The position numbers and the translations under genes are program-made. Below the pieces are notes generated by a model. It was given only the letters and a program-made list of their open reading frames with translations. It was not told where the DNA came from and did not search any database. Positions 28,313 through 48,686 of a stretch of 64,000 nt of DNA are shown piece by piece. Every line of letters starts with the position of its first letter. Positions within the stretch are counted from its first letter, which is position 1. This stretch comes from Acidaminococcus hominis (GTDB taxonomy: Bacteria; Bacillota; Negativicutes; Acidaminococcales; Acidaminococcaceae), in the NCBI RefSeq assembly GCF_900291475.1, contig NZ_OLMM01000004.1, positions 560,873-624,872 of the forward strand. The letters are read 5' to 3'.

Positions 28313-29581
28313 TTACTTGAAGATACTGGGCAGGAACAGTGTCAAACCCGGAATGTAGGTTACCAAAAGCAGTACCACCAACAGAACACCCAGCATGGGC
28401 AGCAGATCATGCATCTGGTCCTTCAGCGAAATCTTGGCAATAGAACCCGATACGAACAGGCATACCCCCAAAGGAGGAGTACACATACCGATGGTCAGGT
28501 TCACCGCAATGATTAAGCCAAAATGTACCAAATCAATGCCCATAGCTTTTACCAGAGGGATAAACAGTGGAGCAAAGATTACGATGGCACTAGTAGTATC
28601 AATAAAGGTCCCCGCAATCAGCAGGATAATGTTAATAACCAGCAGCAATACATATTTGTTATGAATCGTTGCCTGTAGGAAGGCCGTTACCACTTGAGGC
28701 ACCTGGTTTACAGTGATTACCCAAGTAAACAAGGAAGCACAGGCTACTACAATCAGCACCTGACCGCTGCTCTTAGCACTGTTGACCAGGGCTTCCCAGA
28801 AGGTCTTCCAATTCATTTGGTGGTAAATCAATACGCTGACCACCAGAGCATAGAATACAGCAACTGCACCAGATTCAGTAGGGGTAAAAATACCGGTCAT
28901 GATGCCGCCAATAATGATGATGGGCATCAAAAGTGCGAGTACCGTATCTTTGCCTGTTGCCAAAATTTCTTTAAGCGTAGCAGCCTTTTCACGGCCTACA
29001 TAGTGTCTTTTCTTGCCAATAAAGTAGCAGAAAATCATCAGACCGATACCCATTAGGATACCAGGAACGACACCGCCGATAAACAGGGCACCTACGCTGA
29101 CATTCGCCAATGTGCCATATACCAGCAAAGGAATAGAAGGAGGAATAATCGGTCCAATAGATCCGCCACAAGCCAGCAGTGGTGAGCTAAAGGTATAATC
29201 ATATCCTTTTTCCTTCATGAGCGGAATCATAATCCCGCCAATGGCAGCCGTTGCTGCGATAGCAGAACCGGTAATTGCTGCAAAGAACATGCAGGCCAGG
29301 ATACTTACCATGGCCAGGCCGCTGGGCAAATGCCCCAAAAGGGTATCTGCAAAATCCACCAGGCGCTTAGACATCCCACCTCTGAACATCAATTCCCCGG
29401 AAAGCATAAACAAAGGAATTGCAATCAGGGCGATACTGTCCACCCCGCCAAACATCCGCTGAATTACAATCAACAGGTTAAAGTCTTGACCAGCCAGAAC
29501 CCCTACGGACACCAAGCCAAGGGCAAAAGAAATGGGAATACCAACCAAGAACAGGGCAAATAAAGCGAGGATAATACTCAT
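28313..29581 (-). CDS. dctM: TRAP transporter large permease (DctM)
   Basis: A 422-residue DctM-family permease, with 12-13 helices and Na+-site motifs typical of the family (GSAIAATAAIGGIMIPLM, GSIGPIIPPSIPLLVYG, GTFIDTTSAIVIFAPLFIPL, NLTIGMCTPPLGVCLFV). It provides the transport path of a Na+-driven tripartite carrier. Its ATG overlaps the DctQ stop (ATGA), so the two are translationally coupled. It is last in the nitrilase-DUF2848-DctP-DctQ-DctM operon. Confidence 0.95.
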   Translation of the reverse strand: MSIILALFALFLVGIPISFALGLVSVGVLAGQDFNLLIVIQRMFGGVDSIALIAIPLFMLSGELMFRGGMSKRLVDFADTLLGHLPSGLAMVSILACMFFAAITGSAIAATAAIGGIMIPLMKEKGYDYTFSSPLLACGGSIGPIIPPSIPLLVYGTLANVSVGALFIGGVVPGILMGIGLMIFCYFIGKKRHYVGREKAATLKEILATGKDTVLALLMPIIIIGGIMTGIFTPTESGAVAVFYALVVSVLIYHQMNWKTFWEALVNSAKSSGQVLIVVACASLFTWVITVNQVPQVVTAFLQATIHNKYVLLLVINIILLIAGTFIDTTSAIVIFAPLFIPLVKAMGIDLVHFGLIIAVNLTIGMCTPPLGVCLFVSGSIAKISLKDQMHDLLPMLGVLLVVLLLVTYIPGLTLFLPSIFK

Positions 29582-30072
29582 GCTTCTTCTCCTCCTTCCT
29601 TTAGCTCTTTAATCTGTGCCACAATATTTTGGATTACATAGAAAATCATGCAGATTGCAGAAAGAGGAATCCCTGCATAATAGTAAGTCATAGGCAGCAG
29701 CAAATATGAGGTAGTTTGGATATACCCCATCTGTGCAAAGGAAAAACCAAAGTTCACCAAGAAAATGAAGAATCCCATCAACACAAAATTGATAATGATT
29801 TCAACGATTTTCCGGTTTCTCTTGCTAAGCAAGGTCAGCAGCACATCCACGTTCAAATGAGAATTATCTCGAACACAATAGGCAGCACCAAAATAAATCA
29901 TATACGTGAAAGCCAACCGGATAACGTCCTGTGACCATGGCAATGGAGAATGCAGCACATATCTAAAGATAACAGCCAGAAACGTTACAACAAAGATGAC
30001 GCAGGAGGACAGCCCCAGCACAAAGCGAATCAACGCTGTGAGAATCCGATCAATTCCGGAAAGAATGTTCAT
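29578..30072 (-). CDS. dctQ: TRAP transporter small permease (DctQ)
   Basis: A 164-residue protein with four membrane helices and the family hallmark WSQDVIRLAFTYMIYFGAAY and VRDNSHLNVDVLL. It forms a complex with DctM in the inner membrane. The reading frame begins 15 bases after DctP ends (AAAGGAGGGG site) and overlaps DctM by four bases. Confidence 0.93.
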   Translation of the reverse strand: MNILSGIDRILTALIRFVLGLSSCVIFVVTFLAVIFRYVLHSPLPWSQDVIRLAFTYMIYFGAAYCVRDNSHLNVDVLLTLLSKRNRKIVEIIINFVLMGFFIFLVNFGFSFAQMGYIQTTSYLLLPMTYYYAGIPLSAICMIFYVIQNIVAQIKELKEGGEEA

Positions 30073-30087
30073 TTGTGCCCCTCCTTT

Positions 30088-31119
30088 TTAAGACTTCGGC
30101 ATGGTTTTAATGGCTTCTTTCACCATTTCCACCAATTCCGGTTTCACCAATTTAGCAACAGCCGGTTCTTTGTACAGATTTTCTGTAGCCTTCTTAAAGG
30201 ATTCAATATCGACTTCATCGACCTGCAAGCCAGCAGCTTTCATTTCTGCCAACATTGCCTGTTCTTTCCCGTTAATGTCAGCTCTTTGAGCATCCCTTGC
30301 ATAAATAGCTGCTTCATCCACAGCCTTTTGGTATTCCGAAGGCAGGCTGTCATAAAACTTTTTATTGATCAAGGCACTGCCTGCAGCATAGGTGTGGCCA
30401 TCTAAGCTCATATATTTCTGCACTTCATAGAATTTAGAACTGGCAATAGAAGCTATAGGGTTTTCTTCCCCATCAACCATGCCCTGCTGTAAAGCTGTAT
30501 ACAGTTCTGCAAACGGTACTGGCGTTGCCGTAGCATTTAAGTCGTGCATCAAGGCAAACCAAACCGGAGCTTCCTGTACACGGATTTTTAAGCCAGCCAT
30601 ATCAGCGGCTGTTTTTACAGGTCTTACGTTATTGGTGAAATGTCTGAAGCCCAGTTCAGCAAAAGCCAAATGCTTGGCACCTTTAGCTTCGAATTTGGGT
30701 TCCAAATAATTTTGTAAGGTATTATCCAATACGTAATAGGCTTCTTTTTTATTCGCAAACAAGTAAGGAATGGAGAGGATCTGCGTTTCAGGCACCCAGG
30801 AAGGCAGCGTGCCGTCAGAAGTAACACAGCACATTTCGATAGTTCCCATCAAAACAGATTCGGCCATTTCCCGTTCATTACCCAAGGCATTGTTGGGATA
30901 AATTTCCACTTTTACTTTACCATTGGTTAATTCTTCAACTCTCTGTTTGAAGTATTTTCCATAAACGGTGTACTGATGCTGGTCATTCCCGGTAGAACCG
31001 AACTTAATTGTATAAACACCGTCTTTATCCGGACCTTTTGGGCCACTATTGCACCCGGCAGTGAGCATCACCGTAAGAGAAAGTAGAGCCATGCCTAATA
31101 ATTTCAGTGTTTTACCCAT
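30088..31119 (-). CDS. dctP: TRAP transporter solute-binding lipoprotein (DctP)
   Basis: A 343-residue binding protein with a type II signal (lipobox LTAGC, Cys at about residue 23), as expected for an envelope lipoprotein. DctP motifs include EIYPNNALGNEREMAESVL, LGFRHFTNNVRPV, the conserved Arg in LKIRVQEAPV that salt-bridges the substrate carboxylate, and FAELYTALQQGMVDGEENP. The ligand is thus most likely a carboxylate. Two nitrilase/DUF2848 genes upstream suggest the acid carries an amide or is formed with one. GAGGAGGAA precedes the ATG. Confidence 0.94.
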   Translation of the reverse strand: MGKTLKLLGMALLSLTVMLTAGCNSGPKGPDKDGVYTIKFGSTGNDQHQYTVYGKYFKQRVEELTNGKVKVEIYPNNALGNEREMAESVLMGTIEMCCVTSDGTLPSWVPETQILSIPYLFANKKEAYYVLDNTLQNYLEPKFEAKGAKHLAFAELGFRHFTNNVRPVKTAADMAGLKIRVQEAPVWFALMHDLNATATPVPFAELYTALQQGMVDGEENPIASIASSKFYEVQKYMSLDGHTYAAGSALINKKFYDSLPSEYQKAVDEAAIYARDAQRADINGKEQAMLAEMKAAGLQVDEVDIESFKKATENLYKEPAVAKLVKPELVEMVKEAIKTMPKS

Positions 31120-31121
31120 CT

Positions 31122-31814
31122 TTACCGTTCCTCCTCACTAATTTCATGGACAGAGTATTGGCAGGTTAATTTTCTGTTCAAGATAGGATCAATCATCTCC
31201 CCTCTGAAATGTGTGCCGAATACGAAACCAGATTTCACAGGCACCGTACCGGAGAAAATAATGCTGCGGGGAATAGCTTCTACCCGTTTATGCATCTCTT
31301 CCAAAATCCGTTCCACCGGCAGGATGTCCTTTACGCCGCCCTCTTGATACAGGGTTTCCTTACCATCCACAACCTGGTAGGAGTTTAATTTAATGTCGTC
31401 CCAATGATCTTTTACATCATCATAGTCCCAAACCACACCGCCAATAGGCTTCGGGCATACCTGCTTGGCTTTGGGCACGCTTTCCCCTTCCAGCTTTCTA
31501 TCCGTATGGTCACTGCCAATACCGATATAAACCTTTTCACCTTGGGTAATAATGACATATTCCACTTCCCCACAGGTATCATGGCTGACAAAATGAATAT
31601 CCAAATCGTGAGTCAGCAACATATTGGACATTTGGAAAATCGTAGGAATCAGTTTGGGAGCAGGAACACCAAAACGTTCTTTCAGTTCCTGGATATGTTC
31701 TAACGTTTTTGCCATATTCCGGCCCGCATACCCAATTGCATACAAATCATCATAAACTATATCTAAATCACTTACTTTACCGCCTTTTTCCAATTGAAAC
31801 CGTACCATTGACAT
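31122..31814 (-). CDS. DUF2848 family protein
   Basis: A 230-residue protein recognised as DUF2848 by segments such as YAIGYAGRNMAKTLEHI, EYVIITQGEKVYIGIGSDHT and SGTVPVKSGFVFGTHFRGEM. The C-terminal part resembles the fumarylacetoacetate-hydrolase-like fold, so hydrolase or lyase activity is possible, but no family member is characterised to my knowledge. The ATG at 31814 follows AAGGAGG; the gene overlaps neither neighbour but lies 2 bases before dctP and 13 bases after the nitrilase-family gene, so it is plainly part of the TRAP operon. Confidence 0.85.
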   Translation of the reverse strand: MSMVRFQLEKGGKVSDLDIVYDDLYAIGYAGRNMAKTLEHIQELKERFGVPAPKLIPTIFQMSNMLLTHDLDIHFVSHDTCGEVEYVIITQGEKVYIGIGSDHTDRKLEGESVPKAKQVCPKPIGGVVWDYDDVKDHWDDIKLNSYQVVDGKETLYQEGGVKDILPVERILEEMHKRVEAIPRSIIFSGTVPVKSGFVFGTHFRGEMIDPILNRKLTCQYSVHEISEEER

Positions 31815-31827
31815 AGTTCCTGCCTCC

Positions 31828-32616
31828 TTAGAATTTTGCATATAAATCAGGGCGGCGATCCACGTATACGTTAATACTGGAACGAATCCCTTTTAAAATC
31901 TCAAAATCAAAATCACCAGAAATAATTTCTTCACTAGGCCCAGCTTCTTGAATAACCTCGCCCCAAGGATTCAGCAGGCAGGAAGTTCCTCCATATACAG
32001 TTTCACCTGCTTTTCCGCAAGAGTTGCAAGCTGCCAGGAAAACTTGATTCTCAATAGCACGTGCTTTAGTGAGAATTTGCCAATGGGTACGACGAACAGC
32101 TGGCCACTGAGCAGAAATAAAGAGGATATCAATACCTTTCACAGCCAAAGCCCGAGTCAATTCCGGGAAACGGATATCATAGCAAATAATCATCCCGCAA
32201 CGATGCCCATCCAGTTCAAATAAAGCCAGATGATCCCCCTTTTGATAGGCAACATCTTCCTTCATCGGAGTAAAGGCATGAATTTTATCATATTCCGCGA
32301 TGCAATTTCCCGAACGATTGAAAATAAAAGCTGTATTGTATACTTTTCCGTTTTTTACATTTGAGACAGAACCAGCCACAATATTTACATTCAATTCTTT
32401 GGCTAATCCACCGCATAATTCTTTCGTTTTTTCACCATTTTGATCACTTAATGATGCCAAATTCTTATCCGGGAAGAAACCCGTATTCCAGGTTTCCGGC
32501 AATACAATCACATCTGGTTTTTCTAGTGCAGCTTTTCTAATTAGTTCTTCTGCGTGTTTAAAGTTAAATTCAGGATCTGCAAATTTCATGTCCATCTGTG
32601 CAATGCTGACTTTCAT
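31828..32616 (-). CDS. Carbon-nitrogen hydrolase (nitrilase-superfamily amidase)
   Basis: A 262-residue amidase with the triad Glu (IVLPETWNTGF), Lys (EYDKIHAFTP) and Cys (MIICYDIRFPEL), the last two close to omega-amidase/Nit2 and YafV types. It begins the operon with DUF2848 and a TRAP carrier, so it probably acts on the imported carboxylate or its product. The start at 32616 follows AGGAGGGA and removes an untypical 29-residue AT-rich extension. Base composition in this stretch is more A/T rich than the 0-23 kb part. Confidence 0.9.
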   Translation of the reverse strand: MKVSIAQMDMKFADPEFNFKHAEELIRKAALEKPDVIVLPETWNTGFFPDKNLASLSDQNGEKTKELCGGLAKELNVNIVAGSVSNVKNGKVYNTAFIFNRSGNCIAEYDKIHAFTPMKEDVAYQKGDHLALFELDGHRCGMIICYDIRFPELTRALAVKGIDILFISAQWPAVRRTHWQILTKARAIENQVFLAACNSCGKAGETVYGGTSCLLNPWGEVIQEAGPSEEIISGDFDFEILKGIRSSINVYVDRRPDLYAKF

Positions 32617-33014
32617 AACTAACTTCCCTCCTAAATTAAAATGTAGTATGTAATATATTTCTAAATTCAACTTCATTGTATGTTCCTGTAAATATTTTGT
32701 CAATTACTTTTCTCATTTTACGAACAATTATATTATTATATCTATTAATGTTATGATATATACATAACATTCCTTGAATTGACTTCTGACGTTATATTTC
32801 TTGTTTTTACAGGCAGATTCTTCATATTTTTCAGTTATTATCTTTGTCATATGAGGAATTCTGCCGGTTATTCTGCAAACTTTTTTAATCCAGTAATCCT
32901 CTCTTCGTTCGGAAAATAATTGCTTCTCATTAAAGCTATCTTGATTAACTAAGCATGCAATTAATACTAAATGGCAATAAGGAGGCCTTTTTTTATAAAA
33001 TTTAAGGCAAAAAA
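32617..33014. other. ~400-bp AT-rich intergenic region
   Basis: No gene seen. It should hold the promoter of the nitrilase/TRAP operon; A/T-rich boxes near 32720-32765 are candidates. No repeat or known RNA motif was recognised. Confidence 0.5.
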
Positions 33015-36409: not shown

Positions 36410-36883
36410 TTATTTCTTCTTTTTTCTAAAACAGAAAGTGCAATGCCCATCTTTGTACATGATGTGGTCATGGATGCATTCCATATCCTCATTGTAGCCT
36501 TTGACAATGGCCGGATCGATATTCTCGCAGTAAATGCGGCCATATTTCTCCTCTCCGGCGTCTATCCAGGTTTGGGCAAATACGCAGCGGTCAAAATCCT
36601 GATGGATTTCATCCGGCGTATATTTGGTTTCAGCACCGAACAGCTCACTGCGTTCCATATCGTAACTGGGCAGATAAGCTTCCAGATCATTGGTTTTACC
36701 GCTTTGGGCTGCACGATGGGCAATATCCTTGCCTCTGGCAACGCCCCATTCAATGACGGTTTCTTTCAGTAAGTCCAGACCTTCTGCACCGTATTTCTTC
36801 TCCAGGTTTTTAGCCAGGATAGAGAAGAACCGGGCAAATAGGACAAACATATTCACGGGTTTGTCCACTTTTTCCATTGCCAT
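36410..36883 (-). CDS. L-2-amino-thiazoline-4-carboxylate (ATC) hydrolase family protein
   Basis: A 157-residue cytosolic protein of the ATC hydrolase family (PF14196), recognised by WIDAGEEKYGRIYCENIDPA followed by KGYNEDMECIHDHIMYKDGH and the C-terminal CTFCF. The founding member, AtcB of Pseudomonas, opens ATC to an N-carbamoyl-cysteine, but most of the family is untested. It is third in an Nramp-like carrier-ureohydrolase-ATC hydrolase unit (26 bases after the ureohydrolase), and a carbamoyl-amino-acid hydrolase lies in the divergent unit. GGGGGAG precedes the ATG. The C-terminal Cys pair and polybasic end are notable. Confidence 0.8.
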   Translation of the reverse strand: MAMEKVDKPVNMFVLFARFFSILAKNLEKKYGAEGLDLLKETVIEWGVARGKDIAHRAAQSGKTNDLEAYLPSYDMERSELFGAETKYTPDEIHQDFDRCVFAQTWIDAGEEKYGRIYCENIDPAIVKGYNEDMECIHDHIMYKDGHCTFCFRKKKK

Positions 36884-36909: not shown

Positions 36910-37896
36910 TTATTTCTTATGGTTCAAACGGTATTCCGCCAGCCCATTCATAAAGTACAGAGCAGCCCAGCAGCCCACATGAGAAGCGGTTTGCAGCGTA
37001 CCATTTTCCGGATAAATTTCCACAAAGTCCAGGGAAGAAGCACCTGCCAAGCCAGCTTCATGCACCATCATCAAAAGTTCAAAGCTGGTCAGGCCTGCCA
37101 TATCTTGCGGGCCTTGGGGCATAAAGGCAGCATCCAGGCTGTCAGCGCAAATAGTAACATACAGCACATCCGTATCTTTAGAAGCAATTTCAATGGCTTT
37201 CTTGATAGAGGCTTCCCAACCATTTTTCTTTACTTCAAAGCAGGGAATTACGGTAGCACCAAACTTCTTGGCATTTTCCCGTTCTTGTTGGTGATTTCTG
37301 GGTCCCCGGATACCAATATGCACAATCTTGGTGGCATCCATGTTAGGATCATTGTACAGACGGTAGAAAGGAGAACACCGGGACAGGTCATCGTCACCAA
37401 AAGCATTGTAGTTATCCAAATGGGCATCGAAATGCAGAACTCCTACACGTTTGGGATGGCGTTTGGCCAATTCACTGATGGCCGGATAAGCAATACCATG
37501 GTCGCCGCCAAACAAGATGGGAACAGCCCCTGCATCCACAATTTCACCGTACCGTTCCCGAATCTGTTGGAAGGTGAAGTCATAGTTACCGTTTTGTACA
37601 GCACAATCGCCATAATCTCCAGCCTTCAATACGGATAAGGAATCCAAATCGAAGTCAGGCAGATAACCAGTGTAGCGGATAGAAGCTGTACGGATGGACT
37701 TGGGACCTTCTGTGCAGGAGGAATAGCCGCCAATGGTGCAGCCGCCTTCCCAAGGCACACCCAGGACTGCCACATCCACCTTCTTCAAGTCTTCTTTCTT
37801 TTCCAGAACGGACAGATTCAAAAAGGACGGAACCCCGCTATAGATATTGGTGGGCAAAAATGCAGGATCGTAGATACAAGGTTTGCTTTCTTTCAT
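36910..37896 (-). CDS. Ureohydrolase-family protein (agmatinase/arginase fold) with altered metal site
   Basis: A 328-residue ureohydrolase. Metal-ligand motifs GGDHG (His133) and HFDAHLD (Asp157, His159, Asp161) are intact. The last ligand motif, normally SxDxDxxDPAF, here reads TICADSLDAAF, so the first Asp is Cys250 and the second ligand Asp252 remains; the following Glu in FVEIYPENG is present. Family enzymes hydrolyse guanidino compounds to urea with two Mn (or Ni). The change suggests an altered metal or substrate. It is cotranscribed with an ATC-hydrolase-family protein and an Nramp-like carrier (60 bases after it), so it may act on a guanidino- or isothiourea-like compound. AAAGGAGATG precedes the ATG. 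Confidence 0.88.
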   Translation of the reverse strand: MKESKPCIYDPAFLPTNIYSGVPSFLNLSVLEKKEDLKKVDVAVLGVPWEGGCTIGGYSSCTEGPKSIRTASIRYTGYLPDFDLDSLSVLKAGDYGDCAVQNGNYDFTFQQIRERYGEIVDAGAVPILFGGDHGIAYPAISELAKRHPKRVGVLHFDAHLDNYNAFGDDDLSRCSPFYRLYNDPNMDATKIVHIGIRGPRNHQQERENAKKFGATVIPCFEVKKNGWEASIKKAIEIASKDTDVLYVTICADSLDAAFMPQGPQDMAGLTSFELLMMVHEAGLAGASSLDFVEIYPENGTLQTASHVGCWAALYFMNGLAEYRLNHKK

Positions 37897-37956: not shown

Positions 37957-39192
37957 TTACATCAGGCTGACCACACTGCTCAGACCTAGCACCAGGGAAA
38001 TTCCAAAGATGCCAACACCCAAGACCGTTTCCAGCTTGCTGTTAACAAATTGGCCCATAATCCCATGACGGCAGGTCAGATAGATGGTAACGCCTACCAC
38101 AACTGGCAGGACTATGCCATTGACCATTTGTGCTGCCATAATTAATGCAATCGGATTAAAACCCATACCAGCAACAACGATACCGGTAATCAGCACCAGG
38201 AAATTGGTGATGGTGTAACGTTTGTCAGAACGATCGGTTTTCCATTTGAATAGACCAGCCAATACGTAGGATACACCCATAGGAGTGCAGACTGCAGAAG
38301 AAACGCCGGCGGCCACCAGGCCAATAGCCATAAACGGTTCAGCCCAAACTCCCAAGGTAGGGCGCAGCTGAACAGCCATATCCATAGCATTCCGAACTGG
38401 CATGCCGTACATCACCGTAGCAGAAGTTACCATAATGGCACCGGTAACAATGCCGCCGATGATCATGGGAATGTTGGTACCAAAACGGCACAGTGGAAGT
38501 TCATCTGTAGAATGCCAAGTCCGTTTGGCAGAAGCTGCATGAAGGAACATGTTGTAGGGTACTACTGTAGTGCCAATCAGGGATAGGCAAGTCATCAGGC
38601 CACCCTGGGGAATATTAGGCACGCAGCCAGCCAGCAAATCTCCGACGTCTGGTCTCACCACAATCATGGTTACCAGGAACACCACAGCCATAATTACTAC
38701 GCAGATGCCCAGAAGCTTTTCCAGATACTTAACGGCATCACCGGCAAAGCTCAGAATCAACAAAATGCATAGGCCCCAAATAGGAGCAATAATGCGGGTA
38801 GAAACGCCGGTTAAGGCGCTGATGCCGATAGCGGTACCAGTCAAGTCGCCGCTCATATAGGCAAACCCACCAATGGTAATGGCTACGGCCACCAGGCCGC
38901 AAAGCAGATTCCGCAAAAGAGGGCGGTCTTCAAAATCTTTCACCAGGTTTTCTGCCAAGCCCATTTGGGTTACAATGCCCAGTCGGGCAGCCATTCCCTG
39001 CATGACCATAACTGCAATTACCGAGAAAATTACGCACCAGAACAAGCTTAAGCCGTAGTCCGCACCGGCTTTAGTAGAACTGGTAACCGTGCCCGGTCCA
39101 ATGAAGGATCCTACAATAAGGAACCCAGGTCCCAGTGATTTCATTTTGTCACTGAGCGTGTACTTCTTTGCTTCTGTTTGCATGTTCGTCAT
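37957..39192 (-). CDS. Nramp-fold (SLC11-like) carrier without the canonical metal-binding motifs
   Basis: A 411-residue membrane protein with 11 helices of the Nramp/SLC11 fold. In metal-importing Nramps, TM1 carries DPGN and TM6 carries MPH; here TM1 reads SFIGPGTVTSSTKAG (Gly32-Pro-Gly-Thr35) and TM6 reads GTTVVPYNMFLHA (Val211-Pro-Tyr213). The Asp, Asn, Met and His used to bind and move Mn2+/Fe2+ are thus all replaced, while the helix-breaking prolines stay. It is unlikely to be a normal Mn importer. It heads the ureohydrolase-ATC hydrolase operon, so an organic substrate is conceivable. The ATG at 39192 is used; another at 39183 is also in range of the AGGAGG. Confidence 0.88.
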   Translation of the reverse strand: MTNMQTEAKKYTLSDKMKSLGPGFLIVGSFIGPGTVTSSTKAGADYGLSLFWCVIFSVIAVMVMQGMAARLGIVTQMGLAENLVKDFEDRPLLRNLLCGLVAVAITIGGFAYMSGDLTGTAIGISALTGVSTRIIAPIWGLCILLILSFAGDAVKYLEKLLGICVVIMAVVFLVTMIVVRPDVGDLLAGCVPNIPQGGLMTCLSLIGTTVVPYNMFLHAASAKRTWHSTDELPLCRFGTNIPMIIGGIVTGAIMVTSATVMYGMPVRNAMDMAVQLRPTLGVWAEPFMAIGLVAAGVSSAVCTPMGVSYVLAGLFKWKTDRSDKRYTITNFLVLITGIVVAGMGFNPIALIMAAQMVNGIVLPVVVGVTIYLTCRHGIMGQFVNSKLETVLGVGIFGISLVLGLSSVVSLM

Positions 39193-39296
39193 GCCTCCTA
39201 CTCCCCTCGATTAACTACCTGCAACTCATAGTCATTCTCTCTGTTTTGACTACATTGTCGTTTTTTATGTTGCATTGTAGTTTATGGGTAGAGTTA

Positions 39297-39340
39297 TACC
39301 ACGAATGAAAATGATTTGTCAACAAATTTCATTCGTGGTA
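39297..39340. promoter_or_regulatory. Long interrupted palindrome, probable IclR operator
   Basis: Arms TACCACGAATGAAA (39297-39310) and TTTCATTCGTGGTA (39327-39340) are perfectly complementary over 14 bases around a 16-base spacer. It sits in the divergent gap between the Nramp-like carrier and iclR genes, 39 bases before the iclR ATG, where an operator for both would be expected. Confidence 0.65.
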
Positions 39341-39378: not shown

Positions 39379-40155
39379 ATGGAAAAGAAGTTACAAAAAC
39401 CCATCCAATCCGTAGAACGTGCCATCAAAATCTTAGATTGTTTTTCCCTTATTACCCCTAGTCTTTCCTTAGCTTCCATCAGTGAAATGACGGGACTCAA
39501 CATCAATACCACCCGAGGCCTGGTGAATACTTTGGTAGAAAATCAGCTGCTCCTGCGTGATGCTGATACAGGCAATTACAAGTTGGGATTTTATTTTGTT
39601 TCTAAAGCATCCATGATTCACGAGGACATTAACCGCTATATTAGATTATTCAAGCCACTTTTGGATGAAATTGCCACGAAATATCATTTTTCCACCAGCT
39701 TGCAGATGGTTTATCACAATCAAATATTTAGTATCTACTGTGCCTATCCTACCAAGGCCGCTTACTACATTGTCATGTCTGAATATACGGATTTGCCGCT
39801 TAGTGCTACCAGCTCCGGAAAATTATTGCTGGCCAATCAGATTTCTCAAGGCCGAAAAGATATATTAGACAATTTTGACTATCATGCTTACACCATTAAC
39901 ACCATCAAAACGAAGGAGCAACTGTTATGGCAGTTGGAGGACATTGCCCGCAAGGGCTACGCCACGGAGATTGAGGAATTTGTTTATGATGTGGGCAGCC
40001 TTGCAATTCCGTTATATGACGAACTAGGTCGGCTCAGCTTCACTGTGTCATCAACTTTTTTTGTTAAATATTTGCTGAATGTCAAAGATGATTTACTAAA
40101 GGATTTCCAGCGGGCTGTAGAAATCTGGAACACGACCCTGCATAAGGAGGTTTAA
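39379..40155 (+). CDS. IclR-family transcriptional regulator
   Basis: A 258-residue regulator: winged HTH at residues 8-70 (SVERAIKILDCFS, SLASISEMTGLNINTTRGLV) and an effector domain with the family LPLSATSSGKLLLA and KGYATEIEEFVYDVGSLAIPL segments. IclR proteins bind small ligands and often repress divergent catabolic operons. It is divergent from the Nramp-like/ureohydrolase/ATC-hydrolase operon and directly upstream of, and cotranscribed with, the carbamoylase. ATG 39379 follows AAAAGGAG; the earlier Met would pass through the palindrome. Confidence 0.93.
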   Translation: MEKKLQKPIQSVERAIKILDCFSLITPSLSLASISEMTGLNINTTRGLVNTLVENQLLLRDADTGNYKLGFYFVSKASMIHEDINRYIRLFKPLLDEIATKYHFSTSLQMVYHNQIFSIYCAYPTKAAYYIVMSEYTDLPLSATSSGKLLLANQISQGRKDILDNFDYHAYTINTIKTKEQLLWQLEDIARKGYATEIEEFVYDVGSLAIPLYDELGRLSFTVSSTFFVKYLLNVKDDLLKDFQRAVEIWNTTLHKEV

Positions 40156-40157
40156 GA

Positions 40158-41381
40158 ATGCTTTCTTTAGAAAAAATCTGGGAGGACCTGTTCTTCCCCC
40201 TTTCTCACTTTGGCTACACAGAAGGAAAAGGCACTACCCGTCTATCCTGGTCTCCAGCCTTTCAGGAGGCGCAAGGGTATCTAATGGATTATGCCCAAAA
40301 GATTGGTCTTACTGCCGTTCAGGATGCCTGCGGAAACCTATTTCTGACTGTCCCTGGCACCCAGGACCTGCCCCCCGTCTACACAGGTTCACACCTAGAC
40401 ACCGTACCCCAAGGCGGCAAATATGATGGTGCCTTGGGCATTACCGTTCCCCTGGCTATCGCTAACTATTGGCATCAGCTTGGCTATTGCCCAGTTCGGC
40501 CGCTTTGCATCATCGCCTTTGCCGAAGAAGAGGGAACCCGTTTTGGTAAGGTATGCTTTGGCAGTCAAGCTCTTACTGGCAAGCTGAAAGGCCTGGACCC
40601 AACAGCCTTGATGACTCGAGAAGGCAAAAACCTACCTGAACTTCTTCAAGCTTCCGGGCTTACTGGCAATCCCTTCACACCCCATTTCCCGCCTGGGAAA
40701 TGCTTTCTGGAGCTTCATATTGAGCAAGGCAACGCTTTGGAAACTGCGGGTTTTCCCTTGGGTATTGTCTCTGCCATTGTAGGCATCCGGCATTTCACCC
40801 TTACTTTTACAGGTAAAGCCAACCATGCCGGAACCACCTCTATGGATTTACGGCACGACGCTTTGGCCGCGGCGTCCTCCTTTATCACCCATGTGTATAA
40901 CAGTGCGCTAGCCTCTCAACGGCAGTATGTAGCCACAGTAGGCCATATCAAAGTAGAACCTGATGCCAACAACGTAGTTCCTGGCAAAGCTGAGATTTCT
41001 CTGGAAATCCGCAGCGAAACAGATACTCTGATGGATTCCGTTTTGGCTGGGTTTCAGAAATTTTTGGACCATACAGCTCAAAAATACGGTGTTACCTATG
41101 AAATTGCCAAGTTGGATCAAATTCCGCCTCTGCCAATGGATGCAGGCCTCAAAAATCTCATTGCTGAAGAAGCTCAAGCCCAGAATATTCCCTACCAAGT
41201 GCAGCCCAGTTGGGCCGGCCATGATGCGATGATTCTAGGCCACGAGCTGCCCACTGCCATGTTCTTTGTTCCTAGTAGAGGTGGCATCAGCCACTCCCCG
41301 GAAGAATTTACTCCGTCCCACGACATTGGCCAAGCCGCTCAGGTTCTGGAAAAAGTACTGCGTCGCGTCAGTGCAGAATAA
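40158..41381 (+). CDS. Zn-dependent N-carbamoyl-L-amino-acid hydrolase / allantoate amidohydrolase family (M20)
   Basis: A 407-residue amidohydrolase of the HyuC/AllC/beta-ureidopropionase group. All features are present: YTGSHLDTVPQGGKYDGALG, AFAEEEGTRFG (catalytic and metal Glu), FLELHIEQG, the dimer-domain GKANHAGTT, and C-terminal WAGHDAMILG and RGGISHSPEEF. It releases CO2 and ammonia from an N-carbamoyl amino acid. AtcC, the N-carbamoyl-L-cysteine amidohydrolase of the ATC route, belongs here, which matches the ATC-hydrolase-family gene in the divergent unit. The ATG lies two bases after the iclR stop, with its ribosome site (GGAGG) inside iclR, so the two are coupled. Confidence 0.92.
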   Translation: MLSLEKIWEDLFFPLSHFGYTEGKGTTRLSWSPAFQEAQGYLMDYAQKIGLTAVQDACGNLFLTVPGTQDLPPVYTGSHLDTVPQGGKYDGALGITVPLAIANYWHQLGYCPVRPLCIIAFAEEEGTRFGKVCFGSQALTGKLKGLDPTALMTREGKNLPELLQASGLTGNPFTPHFPPGKCFLELHIEQGNALETAGFPLGIVSAIVGIRHFTLTFTGKANHAGTTSMDLRHDALAAASSFITHVYNSALASQRQYVATVGHIKVEPDANNVVPGKAEISLEIRSETDTLMDSVLAGFQKFLDHTAQKYGVTYEIAKLDQIPPLPMDAGLKNLIAEEAQAQNIPYQVQPSWAGHDAMILGHELPTAMFFVPSRGGISHSPEEFTPSHDIGQAAQVLEKVLRRVSAE

Positions 41382-44762: not shown

Positions 44763-45938
44763 TTATTCAGCTACTTCTTTTTCCCATTCCAGTACATACT
44801 GAACAAAATACCGGACGCCCAACCCCAAGGCTTTTTCGTCAATATCGAAATAGGGGCTATGCTGGGGATACCGTTTGGCTTCATCATCAAAGCCGCCGCC
44901 CAAGAGCAACAAACATTTGGGATTGTAATACTTGGCAAAGTCTTCTCCACCCATCTGCAGCTCCCAGTCGATGATCTTGTCTTTGTCGAAAACCTTTGCA
45001 CAGGCTCGGCGTCCCGTATCCACACAAGCGTCATCGTTGATCATAGGAGGTGGTCCGAAGTGATATTCGGTACGAATGGCAGCCCGAGTTGCGGTCCCGA
45101 CGCCTTGGGCCACCCGTTCCAAAATATGGGGATAGTCTTCCCGCAGTTCCTTGTTAAAGGTACGAGCGGTGCCGGACAGATGTGCTTCGCCTGGAATCAC
45201 GTTGGAAGTAGTACCGCTCTGGAAGGTGGTAACGCTGAGCACCGCCGGTTCCAAGGGATTGACTTCCCGGCTGACTACAGTCTGGAGGGTGGTGACAAAT
45301 TCAGAACCGGCCACAATGGGATCTATAGTCTGATGAGGCAGGGCTCCATGGCCCCCCTTTCCTTCCACATAGATATCGAAGGTATCGGCAGCACTCATCA
45401 CAGGGCCATAACGCAGGGAAACACAGCCTACTGGAATCTTACTCCAGATATGCAGCGCAATGAGCCGGTCACATTCCTTCACCAGGGGTTCTTCCTTCAT
45501 ATAGTAAGCCCCACTGTCCTCGATGAATTCTTCCGCAGGCTGGAACAGCAGCCGGACGGTAACTTTCAGTTGGTCTTTCATCCCCGCTAAAATTTTAGCC
45601 GTTCCTAGCAGGATGGTGATGTGGGTATCATGGCCGCAGGCATGCATGGTCCCTTCATTCTGGGATTTATAGGCTTCTGTTCCCAGTTCCGTGATGGGCA
45701 GGGCATCAATATCCGCACGAATACCGATAATCTTGTCCGAAGAATGGGGCCCCTTGATGGTGGCAATCACACCAGATTTGCAGGCCTTCACGTATGGGAT
45801 ACCCAATTTTTCCAGATATTCCATGATATATTTTTGGGTTTCAAATTCTTTCCAAGATCTTTCAGGATGCTCATGAAAATGTCTCCTCAGGGCAACCAGT
45901 TCTTCTTGGATTCCATTGACTCTTTCTTTTACATCCAT
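44763..45938 (-). CDS. M20-family amidohydrolase (third paralogue)
   Basis: A 391-residue M20D amidohydrolase. Metal motifs are RADIDALPITELG, HACGHDTHITI, QPAEEFIEDSG and ALHIWSKIP, with GKGGHGALPHQTIDP in the lid domain and QMGGEDFAKYY near the end. It should release an amino acid from an N-acyl conjugate. It is last in the CyuA-YfcC-M20 operon, 17 bases after the YfcC gene, with GGAGG before the ATG. Its partners point to a cysteine-type leaving product, but the substrate is unknown. Confidence 0.92.
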   Translation of the reverse strand: MDVKERVNGIQEELVALRRHFHEHPERSWKEFETQKYIMEYLEKLGIPYVKACKSGVIATIKGPHSSDKIIGIRADIDALPITELGTEAYKSQNEGTMHACGHDTHITILLGTAKILAGMKDQLKVTVRLLFQPAEEFIEDSGAYYMKEEPLVKECDRLIALHIWSKIPVGCVSLRYGPVMSAADTFDIYVEGKGGHGALPHQTIDPIVAGSEFVTTLQTVVSREVNPLEPAVLSVTTFQSGTTSNVIPGEAHLSGTARTFNKELREDYPHILERVAQGVGTATRAAIRTEYHFGPPPMINDDACVDTGRRACAKVFDKDKIIDWELQMGGEDFAKYYNPKCLLLLGGGFDDEAKRYPQHSPYFDIDEKALGLGVRYFVQYVLEWEKEVAE

Positions 45939-45955
45939 TGTTCAACGCCTCCAGA

Positions 45956-47350
45956 TTAAAATGGACCATAATTGATTTTTGTAGCAACCAGCAATGCAAT
46001 CACGCAAACAACGCTCAAGATCAGCAGCAGCGGAGTCACGAATTTCCACCATTTCTTCAGCGGAATTCCGGCAATAGTTAGGAAAATCAGTAGAGTACCG
46101 CTGGTGAACCATGCCGAGTTGGTCAACCCATCCCCAAACTGGAAGGCCAGGATCATGGTCTGACGGGTCATCCCTACCAAGTCTGCCAGAGGGATTAAGA
46201 TAGGCATAAGTGCCATCGCTTTGGCGGATCCAGAAGTAATTAACCCGTTGAACAAGGCAATAACAATCATGACGGCGATAGGAGTAAGGTATTTGGGCAT
46301 AGCCATTAGAGGCTTAGAGATACCGTTAATGATTGGGTCGATGATTGCAGAAGCTGTCAGTATCCATTGAATCCCTCTTGCCAAGCCGATGACAAGTGCC
46401 GGTGTCAGACCATCCTTGACCCCAGCGATAATCACATTAACAAGTTTCCCAGCCGGGATTCTGTTGATCACTCCAGCTGCAATAGCCGTGAACAGGAAGC
46501 AGGCAGACAGGTCATTCATGGACCATCCCTTGGTGGAAACCCCCACGATGGAAGCCACAAACGTTACCAGGAACACCACAAGAGAAATGCTCTGCCGCTT
46601 ATTCAGAGGCTCTTTCAATGTTTCGCTATAGTCGATGCGGAATTTGCTGTCATCCAAATCCGCTGTCAGGGACGCCCGTTTTCCGGATTTCACACCCCGG
46701 GCATAGCGCAGTACATAGATGGCCATGATAATGTTGGCGATGATCAGCAGCACCAGACGGAAAAGGAATCCGGAGAACATGGGCAGCTGAGCGATTTCAT
46801 CGGAAATGCCCACAGTGTACACACTGGTGGGAGAGAAGGAGAAACTGATCATATCCACCATGGCGGAACAGGTGACGCCGGTCATCAAATCATAGCCCAA
46901 CGCCAAGCAAAGGGATATGATGATGGGGATAAAGGGGACAATTTGTTCATTCCACCCCAGGAAACCGCCCAGGCAGCCAAAGACGAACATAATGGCGCAA
47001 AGGATTTTTTCAGATCCCATGGTATCTGATTTGGCCAGAACGCCTGCCATCGCCTTATCCAAAGTACCTGTCTGTTTGTAAACTTCAATGCACCCGGCCA
47101 CCAGCATAACCAGGAACATCATGCTGGCACTGGATACCAACCCGTTGGGGATGGCCTGGAATATAGCCTGAGGTCCCAGATAGACTTTTGGAACACTGTG
47201 GAAGGAATTGGGAACCACCACAGTCACTCCGTTCAAGACTGTCCGTTCAAAGGCGCCGGGAGAAATTAGAAATGATAGCAGCCAGCAACCTACGATGACG
47301 GCAAATACAATGACAAAGGCATTGATTGTGCCCACTTTCTTTTTTTCCAT
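45956..47350 (-). CDS. YfcC-family carrier (second copy)
   Basis: A 464-residue membrane protein with about 12 helices, related to the carrier at 9081-10484. Shared features are FLISPGAFERT near the start, LVAGCIEVYKQTGTLDKAM, NGLITSGSAKAMALMPILIP and LAFQFGDGLTNSAWFTSG. It is flanked in one operon by the cyuA paralogue (31 bases upstream) and an M20 amidohydrolase (17 bases downstream). ATG 47350 sits nine bases after AGGAG. The cargo is presumably the M20 substrate. Confidence 0.88.
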   Translation of the reverse strand: MEKKKVGTINAFVIVFAVIVGCWLLSFLISPGAFERTVLNGVTVVVPNSFHSVPKVYLGPQAIFQAIPNGLVSSASMMFLVMLVAGCIEVYKQTGTLDKAMAGVLAKSDTMGSEKILCAIMFVFGCLGGFLGWNEQIVPFIPIIISLCLALGYDLMTGVTCSAMVDMISFSFSPTSVYTVGISDEIAQLPMFSGFLFRLVLLIIANIIMAIYVLRYARGVKSGKRASLTADLDDSKFRIDYSETLKEPLNKRQSISLVVFLVTFVASIVGVSTKGWSMNDLSACFLFTAIAAGVINRIPAGKLVNVIIAGVKDGLTPALVIGLARGIQWILTASAIIDPIINGISKPLMAMPKYLTPIAVMIVIALFNGLITSGSAKAMALMPILIPLADLVGMTRQTMILAFQFGDGLTNSAWFTSGTLLIFLTIAGIPLKKWWKFVTPLLLILSVVCVIALLVATKINYGPF

Positions 47351-47381
47351 TTTTCTCATCTCCTGTTGCATCTGTACTCAG

Positions 47382-48686
47382 TCACTGCAATGCAGCATTT
47401 ACATCGACTTTCCCAATCATGGTCTTTAAGATTTCGATATCCGTCTGCTTCATTCCTACCTTTCCCAAATAACCGATATTTTTAATGGTCTCTTCGATAT
47501 TTTTGCCAACAAGACCTTCGCCTTCCTTGAAGACCTGGCCGTGCATGCTCATATAATGGCCCATCAGGGCTGCATGGACGGCAGCGGAGATTTTGGCGGC
47601 ACAGCTAGGTTTAGCACCATCGCAGACCATTCCGCCCACATTACACAAGGTATTGGTAATAGTATCTGCCACATGCTGGTAATCCCTAGTAGCCATCCAG
47701 GTAATGGCTGCTCCCGCTCCGCAGGCGGCATTGACTGCACCACAGAAAGCGGAAAGGGGGCCAATATAATGCTTGATGTAGACAGAAATCAAATCCCCTA
47801 CAATCAGTGCCCGTAGTGTCTCATCGTGAGAGAGCCCCCATTCCTTGGCATAGACCAAGATGGGCATGGTAACGGTGATTCCCTGGTTGCCACTCCCAGC
47901 ATTGATAACCACTGGTTTAGGGCATCCGCTCATCCGGGCATCACTCCCTGCTGCAGCAGCAGCCTCAGCCCTGGCCATGACGCTGTCCCCGATGGTCTCC
48001 CGGATAGTCCTTCCTACCTGGCTTCCCCAGGGATGATCAAGGCCTTCCTGGCTGATGGCTGTGTTGTCTTTGATTTCTGTGTCCAACACATCCCGCACTG
48101 TGTCTAGATTCACAGCAGTGGCGTATTCCAAGATTCCTTCTAGGGACATAAGGCTGCGATCAGCACCTTGGTGCTTTCCTTCCTTGGCTTCCAAGCTCTG
48201 GTCATAAAGGACTTGTCCATCCTGGACGACTTTATAGACATTGGTGTGGTTCCCAGAAAGAATCACTTCCGAACTATGTTTCTCGCCCCAGAGCTTCACA
48301 TCGATGTACAATCCTGGTACCCCTTCCACCAGTTCCACATCGCACACATTCCGAGCCACCAGTTTCCGGCAGGCTTCCCTCTGTGCGTCGTTGACGCCAG
48401 CAATGACTTCCAGAACCTTAGATGGGTCTCCGCCACAGATACCCAGTGCCGCAGCCGCTGGAATTCCCTTCTGACCGTTGGAATTGGGAACGGTGACACC
48501 TTTCACGTTCTTAATCATGTTTCCGGAACAATCCACCTCGTAACGGACCACTTCTTCCGGCAGGTAGCTTTTTGCCTTAGCTGCGGCATAAGCAATGGCA
48601 ATAGGTTCTGTACAGCCCATTGCGGGAATCAGTTCCTCATGTAAAATCCGCGAGTAATTATCCATGATTGCATCAGACAGTGCCAT
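47382..48686 (-). CDS. L-cysteine desulfidase family protein (second CyuA)
   Basis: A 434-residue CyuA/UPF0597 protein. Cysteines in AMGCTEPIAIAYA (Cys24), MSGCPKPVV, NAACGAGAA and GMVCDGAKPSCAAK match those of the other copy, including the [4Fe-4S] ligands. Length is identical to the first copy, but the sequences differ widely, so this is an old paralogue and not a recent duplicate. It leads the operon with YfcC and M20 genes behind a 256-base promoter region, with a GntR regulator gene upstream. AAAAGGGG precedes the ATG. A different thiol amino acid substrate is possible. Confidence 0.88.
   Translation of the reverse strand: MALSDAIMDNYSRILHEELIPAMGCTEPIAIAYAAAKAKSYLPEEVVRYEVDCSGNMIKNVKGVTVPNSNGQKGIPAAAALGICGGDPSKVLEVIAGVNDAQREACRKLVARNVCDVELVEGVPGLYIDVKLWGEKHSSEVILSGNHTNVYKVVQDGQVLYDQSLEAKEGKHQGADRSLMSLEGILEYATAVNLDTVRDVLDTEIKDNTAISQEGLDHPWGSQVGRTIRETIGDSVMARAEAAAAAGSDARMSGCPKPVVINAGSGNQGITVTMPILVYAKEWGLSHDETLRALIVGDLISVYIKHYIGPLSAFCGAVNAACGAGAAITWMATRDYQHVADTITNTLCNVGGMVCDGAKPSCAAKISAAVHAALMGHYMSMHGQVFKEGEGLVGKNIEETIKNIGYLGKVGMKQTDIEILKTMIGKVDVNAALQ

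Follow-up and report, generated by a model that had tools for sequence, protein, structure and literature searches.

A GPG-type Nramp-related carrier linked to a ureohydrolase in Acidaminococcus hominis: a candidate carrier for small organic nitrogen compounds

Introduction

What does a carrier of the Nramp superfamily move when all four side chains that hold the metal in its canonical members are lost? This question is raised by a gene of Acidaminococcus hominis located in a stretch of 64,000 nucleotides (contig NZ_OLMM01000004.1, positions 560,873 to 624,872), which was analysed as a whole and is referred to as the window. For related carriers with Gly-Pro-Gly in TM1 (GPG-type), the published reports disagree. 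Overexpression of YcsG of Bacillus subtilis led to more cellular Mn, the protein was renamed MntG, and the earlier evidence for 5-oxoproline was regarded as possibly polar (PMC10448178), whereas pxpT of Corynebacterium glutamicum, whose PF01566 product is 50% identical to YcsG, was required for growth on 5-oxoproline and was complemented; metal transport by PxpT is not excluded in the available text of that report (PMC13274462). Furthermore, a mutant of mumT, a nitrogen-operon gene whose Nramp product has less than 25% homology to others, contained less Mn (PMC5050338).

Nramp-related proteins with neither the DPGN nor the MPH motif have been described as a group, forming a paraphyletic set, in a 2026 preprint, according to whose available text the groups are entirely uncharacterized save the NRMT-like group and that of MntG (PMC12873925), and a PF01566 outgroup devoid of the Mn and proton transport features has been reported as well (PMC9606685). 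A preliminary description of the present gene, in which known divergent Nramps were thought to change only part of the ligand set, is contradicted by the former groups. The subclade analysed here offers a clean test of the disagreement: it combines a different operon enzyme and a single charge change in the pocket with a counterpart in other genomes, where an amino-acid-type ABC importer lies beside the same kind of enzyme.

Results and Discussion

The carrier and its operon

The following features were located around the carrier gene:

37957..39192, minus strand: Nramp-related carrier, 411 aa (open reading frame, Pfam Nramp match and nine close relatives)
36910..37896, minus strand: ureohydrolase (arginase family, PF00491), next operon gene, 60 bp after the carrier
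36410..36883, minus strand: protein of the PF14196 'ATC hydrolase' family (83.2 bits), 26 bp after the ureohydrolase
39379..40155, plus strand: IclR-type regulator (PF01614 and PF09339), divergent from the carrier
40158..41381, plus strand: M20-type hydantoinase/carbamoylase-family amidase after the regulator (PF01546; TIGR01879, 322 bits at a cut-off of 204)
39251..39265, no strand assigned: 15-base conserved stretch between the carrier and the IclR gene, a possible operator or promoter (sequence comparison)

The carrier is a member of the PF01566 (Nramp) superfamily, matching above the gathering cut-off (272 bits versus 29.8) and across the whole domain (profile positions 1-356 of 357). It also passed the NCBIfam model NF037982 'divalent metal transporter' (76.2 versus a cut-off of 50) and stayed below the cut-offs of two NCBIfam Nramp/MntH models. 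The top sequence match among solved structures was 10ky (BfraNramp, carrying DPGN and MPH) with 115.6 bits. An AlphaFold2 model of the carrier, built from 8 rows, was discarded (pLDDT 35.8, pTM 0.27).

Nine close relatives with 72-85% identity were found, all of them carrying GPGT and VVPY, so that the GPGT/VPY combination is not unique. A scan of named genomes provided seven (L003-L009, likewise 72-85%) from two Acidaminococcus, Fournierella, another Oscillospiraceae, a Lachnospiraceae, an uncultured Clostridiales and Treponema vincentii. When 380 genomes were searched at class level, four of the eight other genomes of the window's genus proved to have an orthologue of more than 80% identity. 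Two of these four look identical to contigs of the scan, resulting in ten distinct carriers including that of the window. With both motifs and an open frame of similar length kept in nine relatives, the carrier is no frame or sequencing artefact.

In all ten cases, distributed over the window's genus, Clostridia and Treponema, the carrier is followed directly on its own strand by the ureohydrolase, with 70-87% identity to the window's enzyme and 51 to 260 bp between the aligned ends. A PF14196 homologue follows the ureohydrolase in five of the nine relatives (L008 included), and an IclR-type gene lies upstream in six of the seven relatives from the named scan and also in L108 and L111. The complete arrangement, i.e. 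M20 amidase and IclR gene divergent from carrier, ureohydrolase and PF14196 gene, is kept in all five carriers of the window's genus. The amidine- and amide-cleaving neighbours noted in the preliminary description are thus present. The 15-base stretch was found in all five carriers of the genus (the window, L003, L004, L108 and L111) and in none of L005-L009. Upstream of the IclR gene, a perfect inverted repeat of 14 bases (39297-39340) was set aside, occurring once in the genome and missing from the promoters of L003, L004, L108 and L111. The Rfam search gave no match in the window and just four tRNAs and a TD-2 RNA in the nine related loci; consequently, no riboswitch informs the cargo.

Replacement of the metal ligands

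In alignments, TM1 (SFIGPGTVTSST) and TM6 (IGTTVVPYNMF) of the carrier stand opposite the DPGN and MPH motifs, both in solved Nramps and in 18 canonical Bacillota sequences, in two of which the second motif reads MSH. Asp, Asn, Met and His are lost together and both prolines are kept. This had been recognized in the preliminary description, with the strand to be corrected to minus. For the site comparison 70 rows were aligned, 63 of which fall into four groups (canonical, YcsG-type, other GPGT and ureohydrolase-linked); L048 (GTGT, VVPYN, Asn in TM3) was kept ungrouped and the very divergent L121 (GPGT and VVPY, with unrelated neighbours) was excluded. The diagnostic positions are:

39088..39099, minus strand: TM1 Gly32-Pro-Gly-Thr35 replacing Asp-Pro-Gly-Asn (GPGT in 10/10 ureohydrolase-linked carriers, DPGN in 18/18 canonical rows)
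38845..38847, minus strand: TM3 Asp116, aligned with the conserved glutamate of canonical Nramps (E134 in DraNramp), from aligned rows
38554..38562, minus strand: TM6 Val211-Pro-Tyr213 replacing Met-Pro-His (Tyr213 in 45/45 GPG-type rows, His in 18/18 canonical rows)
38119..38121, minus strand: Asn358, common to GPG-type carriers (Asn in 45/45 GPG-type rows versus Leu in 18/18 canonical rows)

Residue 32 is Gly in all 45 GPG-type rows and Asp in all 18 canonical ones. Residue 116 separates the groups further: it is Asp in 10/10 ureohydrolase-linked carriers, Asn in the 35 other GPG-type rows (17/17 YcsG-type, 18/18 other GPGT) and Glu in 18/18 canonical rows. In comparison with canonical SLC11/MntH proteins such as DraNramp and BfraNramp (10ky), the carrier shares the fold family, the prolines of TM1 and TM6 and the His218 column, but it has neither DPGN nor M-P/S-H, and Asp takes the place of the TM3 Glu. 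Gly-Pro-Gly in TM1, Tyr in TM6 and Asn at position 358 place it among the GPG-type carriers. With the NRMT-like Mg2+ carriers it has PF01566 and the non-canonical motifs in common; these differ by DAGG in TM1 (GPGT in the carrier) and by their place on another branch (two NRMT-like rows compared).

For a carrier that still moved Mn2+ or Ni2+ and thereby loaded the neighbouring ureohydrolase, backbone carbonyls, Thr35, Tyr213 and Asp116 would have to serve as ligands. Such a role would suit Asp116, whose column is that of the TM3 glutamate contacting Mn2+ in BfraNramp (PMC12873925, available text), and the match to NF037982 points in the same direction, but all ten carriers have lost the four ligand side chains, which speaks against it.

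Phylogenetic position

In a 71-row tree the ten ureohydrolase-linked carriers form one branch (100/100), which nests in a 29-row GPGT branch (81/89, not starred). The canonical rows, the YcsG-type rows and the NRMT plus DTDAG rows each form a branch of their own (100/100), and several long branches meet. Holding the ten carriers together with the canonical rows cost 1.57 log units with a p-AU of 0.463 (69-row quick tree, L121 and L048 excluded). Hence, the subclade lies outside the canonical importers sampled, and a sister relation to canonical Nramps is not rejected. The tree position named in the preliminary description as a refutation, inside a clade of proven metal importers, was not observed, the 18 canonical rows forming a branch apart. 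The carrier subclade is a real and conserved part of the known, poorly understood GPG-type Nramp-related carriers. The change from Asn to Asp in TM3 sits on one branch and represents one event; since the ureohydrolase link shares this branch, the agreement between the two counts as a single event.

Neighbourhoods of related carriers

A carrier search of 299 Bacillota genomes gave matches in 73; nine loci with 36-41% identity ranked directly behind the window's own. Eight of the nine carry GPGT and VVPYN and are set among homologues of PxpA, PxpB/C and D-glutamate cyclase, i.e. in 5-oxoprolinase operons; the ninth, L048, lies outside 5-oxoprolinase genes. Haloarchaeal plasmid relatives (35-41% identical) have HyuA- and HyuB-type genes directly downstream in five of the seven loci opened, the exceptions being L054, without HyuAB, and L056, which extends to the end of the record with its downstream side beyond it. 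Both kinds share GPGT and the tree branch with the present carrier, and they differ by Asn in TM3 and by their partner enzymes, the haloarchaeal rows furthermore by VGY.

For comparison, 40 further Bacillota loci were selected from the matches of the 299-genome search. A pxp neighbour was observed in 14 of the 16 YcsG-type loci (15/17 counting the window genome's own; L078 and L079 have no pxp gene within the stretch retrieved) and in 0/18 canonical, 0/2 NRMT-like and 0/4 DTDAG-type loci; the rows being related by descent, no p-value is attached to these counts. A ureohydrolase of the carrier-linked kind was found neither in the 40 further loci nor in L040-L056. L051 has neither a pxp nor a hyu neighbour, and L112 and L113 have a D-glutamate-cyclase-like neighbour only; the GPGT relatives devoid of an oxoprolinase-type neighbour are L051, L054, L121 and L048.

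Together with PxpT, YcsG/MntG and the G-motif groups of PMC12873925 (as far as the available text of these reports goes), the carrier shows PF01566, Gly-Pro-Gly in TM1, Tyr in TM6 and the Asn358 column, and the PxpT/YcsG-type operons, like the carrier's own, encode hydrolases of small nitrogen compounds. It differs by a ureohydrolase in place of 5-oxoprolinase, by Asp instead of Asn in TM3 and by VPY instead of GGY, these motifs being drawn from Bacillota homologues rather than from PxpT or B. subtilis YcsG themselves.

With respect to this kinship, the carrier could be an ordinary carrier of 5-oxoproline or a similar lactam, whose link to the ureohydrolase reflects shared nitrogen regulation instead of a shared substrate. 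We regard this as improbable. The tree position inside the GPGT branch and the shared pocket residues favour it, but no pxp gene was found beside the carriers of L003-L009 or among the listed window genes, and the TM3 residue is different in 10/10. Furthermore, the genome of the window encodes another PF01566 protein, of YcsG type, whose gene is flanked by pxpA- and pxpB-like genes, so that 5-oxoproline is likely served elsewhere.

Several side observations were made in these loci. The haloarchaeal operons of L049, L050, L052, L053 and L055 consist of a CopG-type regulator, the Nramp-like carrier, HyuA and HyuB, with a gene of the Asp/Glu racemase family after HyuB in L050 and a maleate isomerase-like gene in L053. 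The carrier ahead of HyuA and HyuB bears an annotation as metal transporter. In L081, L082, L084 and L086, the PF01566 protein is of yet another type, reading DTDAGS in TM1 and IMPW in TM6, and its gene does not lie beside pxp genes.

The partner ureohydrolase and its ABC counterpart

Both by sequence and by Foldseek, the ureohydrolase matched guanidinase, metformin hydrolase and guanidinopropionase best. Its alignment to guanidinase 9fek starts only at residue 72 of 9fek, and the fold search, the sole use of the model, relied on a prediction with a pLDDT of 71.8 in which residues 1-24 and 50-73 fall under 50. Membership in the ureohydrolase family is supported by the Pfam score and by the fold. 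GGDH and DAHxD are present, and the third motif (DxD) is replaced by C-[AS]-D in 10/10 orthologues:

37147-37149, minus strand: codon of ureohydrolase Cys250 (Cys in 10/10 orthologues; Asp in guanidinopropionase)

Guanidinase, metformin hydrolase and 3-guanidinopropionase differ from the present enzyme in having Asp at this position. In arginase, the Asp of the third motif bridges two metals. Cys in its place suggests an unusual metal site of this ureohydrolase subfamily; a literature search combining ureohydrolase, cysteine, metal ligand and bridging returned no paper joining them. Plasmid-borne ureohydrolase relatives with 30-36% identity (two genes of L122, L123 and L124) keep the Asp and were rejected as members of the Cys type.

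In 398 Bacillota genomes, the ureohydrolase search unveiled three homologues besides its own (L118, L119, L120), which are 39-44% identical and read C-S-D in the third motif. In all three cases the gene either follows a set of Liv-type ABC importer genes or sits inside it. In L118 the binding protein belongs to PF13458, and the loci L119 and L120 were matched to L118; the remaining importer ORFs are presumably Liv components, judging from likeness. Importers of the Liv type, which use a binding protein, are known to take up amino acids and amides. A PF14196 protein (38%) and an M20 amidase (37%) are also encoded in the L118 cluster, and both families are present in the window as well; the pair might correspond to the PF14196 hydrolase and M20 carbamoylase of the ATC-to-cysteine pathway (AtcB/AtcC). 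A similar enzyme set is thus apparently supplied by the present carrier in some genomes and by an importer with a binding protein in others. Of all observations, this counterpart, seen in three genomes, argues most strongly for an organic cargo. A search for the ATC hydrolase on plasmids gave no match.

Ureohydrolases are metal-dependent enzymes, so that metal supply would also explain their linkage to the carrier, and the two best fold matches of the present enzyme are Ni or guanidine hydrolases. With the Mn results for YcsG/MntG (PMC10448178) and for MumT in nitrogen-metabolism operons (PMC5050338), precedents exist in the available texts, the likeness to MumT being one of family and operon. 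Against Mn2+ or Ni2+ as cargo, an amino-acid-type importer takes the carrier's place beside the same kind of enzyme, the nearest kin accompany lactam and ureide enzymes, a ZnuA-family metal-binding protein is encoded elsewhere in the genome, and no metal riboswitch was found in the window and nine related loci. We consider metal transport unlikely, and it retains this much weight because of the Mn reports and because metal transport is left possible in the PxpT study (PMC13274462, available text).

The replacement by an importer bears also on the direction of transport. Substrate/product exchange is common among APC-type carriers, and direction is not readable from sequence, which would allow an exporter or exchanger that clears the product of the ureohydrolase. 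This is very improbable in our view: the apparent replacement includes a periplasmic-type binding protein and is thus importer-like, and PxpT was required for growth on external 5-oxoproline (PMC13274462, available text).

Proposed cargo and mechanism

Cargo class, role of Asp116, direction, enzyme order and coupling ion are what we infer from these comparisons. Probably, the carrier is an Nramp-fold secondary carrier for a small organic nitrogen compound, likely amidine- or guanidine-bearing and amino-acid-like; for any one named compound the probability is much lower. It would move its cargo most likely inward and feed the ureohydrolase of its own operon, presumably by alternating access with TM1 and TM6 unwound at the prolines. 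The pocket would be lined by Gly and Thr of TM1, Tyr of TM6 and Asn358, which would suit a small molecule bearing a carboxylate. Carriers of the branch seem to serve cyclic lactam acids, e.g. 5-oxoproline, and Asp116 in place of the former Asn may pair with a positive amidine or guanidine group, resulting in a zwitterionic cargo. The preliminary description had proposed an organic cation or an amino-acid-like compound. An organic cargo is favoured by comparative genomics, and since experiments support 5-oxoproline as the cargo of the closest precedent, an amino-acid-like, probably zwitterionic compound fits better than a cation.

Candidates would be a guanidino acid or 2-aminothiazoline-4-carboxylate/2-iminothiazolidine-4-carboxylate, the last of which is close in shape to 5-oxoproline and comes into consideration given the PF14196 and M20 genes; creatinine, having no carboxylate, was dropped. 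Nitrogen and an amino acid would then be set free by the Cys-type ureohydrolase, joined in the window's genus by the PF14196 and M20 enzymes. A more specific scenario, possible but doubtful on the present genomic evidence, is that the subclade switched from neutral lactam acids to amidinium or guanidinium zwitterions via the change from Asn to Asp in TM3, where true Nramps have their proton/metal glutamate, and serves a ureohydrolase with a thiolate (Cys) metal ligand; if so, guanidino or amidine acids would for the first time have a known carrier of the Nramp fold.

As far as the literature search reaches, the Asp in TM3, the ureohydrolase as partner and the ABC importer as counterpart are new, and no 'nramp' paper was among the matches listed for Nramp with ureohydrolase, agmatinase, guanidine or hydantoin. 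If an organic cargo holds true, many bacterial and haloarchaeal genes annotated as divalent metal transporters are wrongly labelled, and the family shows one fold moving between organic and metal cargo.

Further clusters in the window

On the minus strand at 44763-48686, an M20 amidohydrolase, a DcuC-family carrier and an SDH_alpha-family protein are encoded, the last of which presumably resembles L-cysteine desulfidase. A cysteine-releasing path at this site, if real, would suit an ATC-type substrate of the carrier operon. At 28313-32703, three ORFs that look TRAP-transporter-like by eye are followed by a DUF2848 protein and a carbon-nitrogen hydrolase-like protein, forming a second cluster for small nitrogen compounds within the window.
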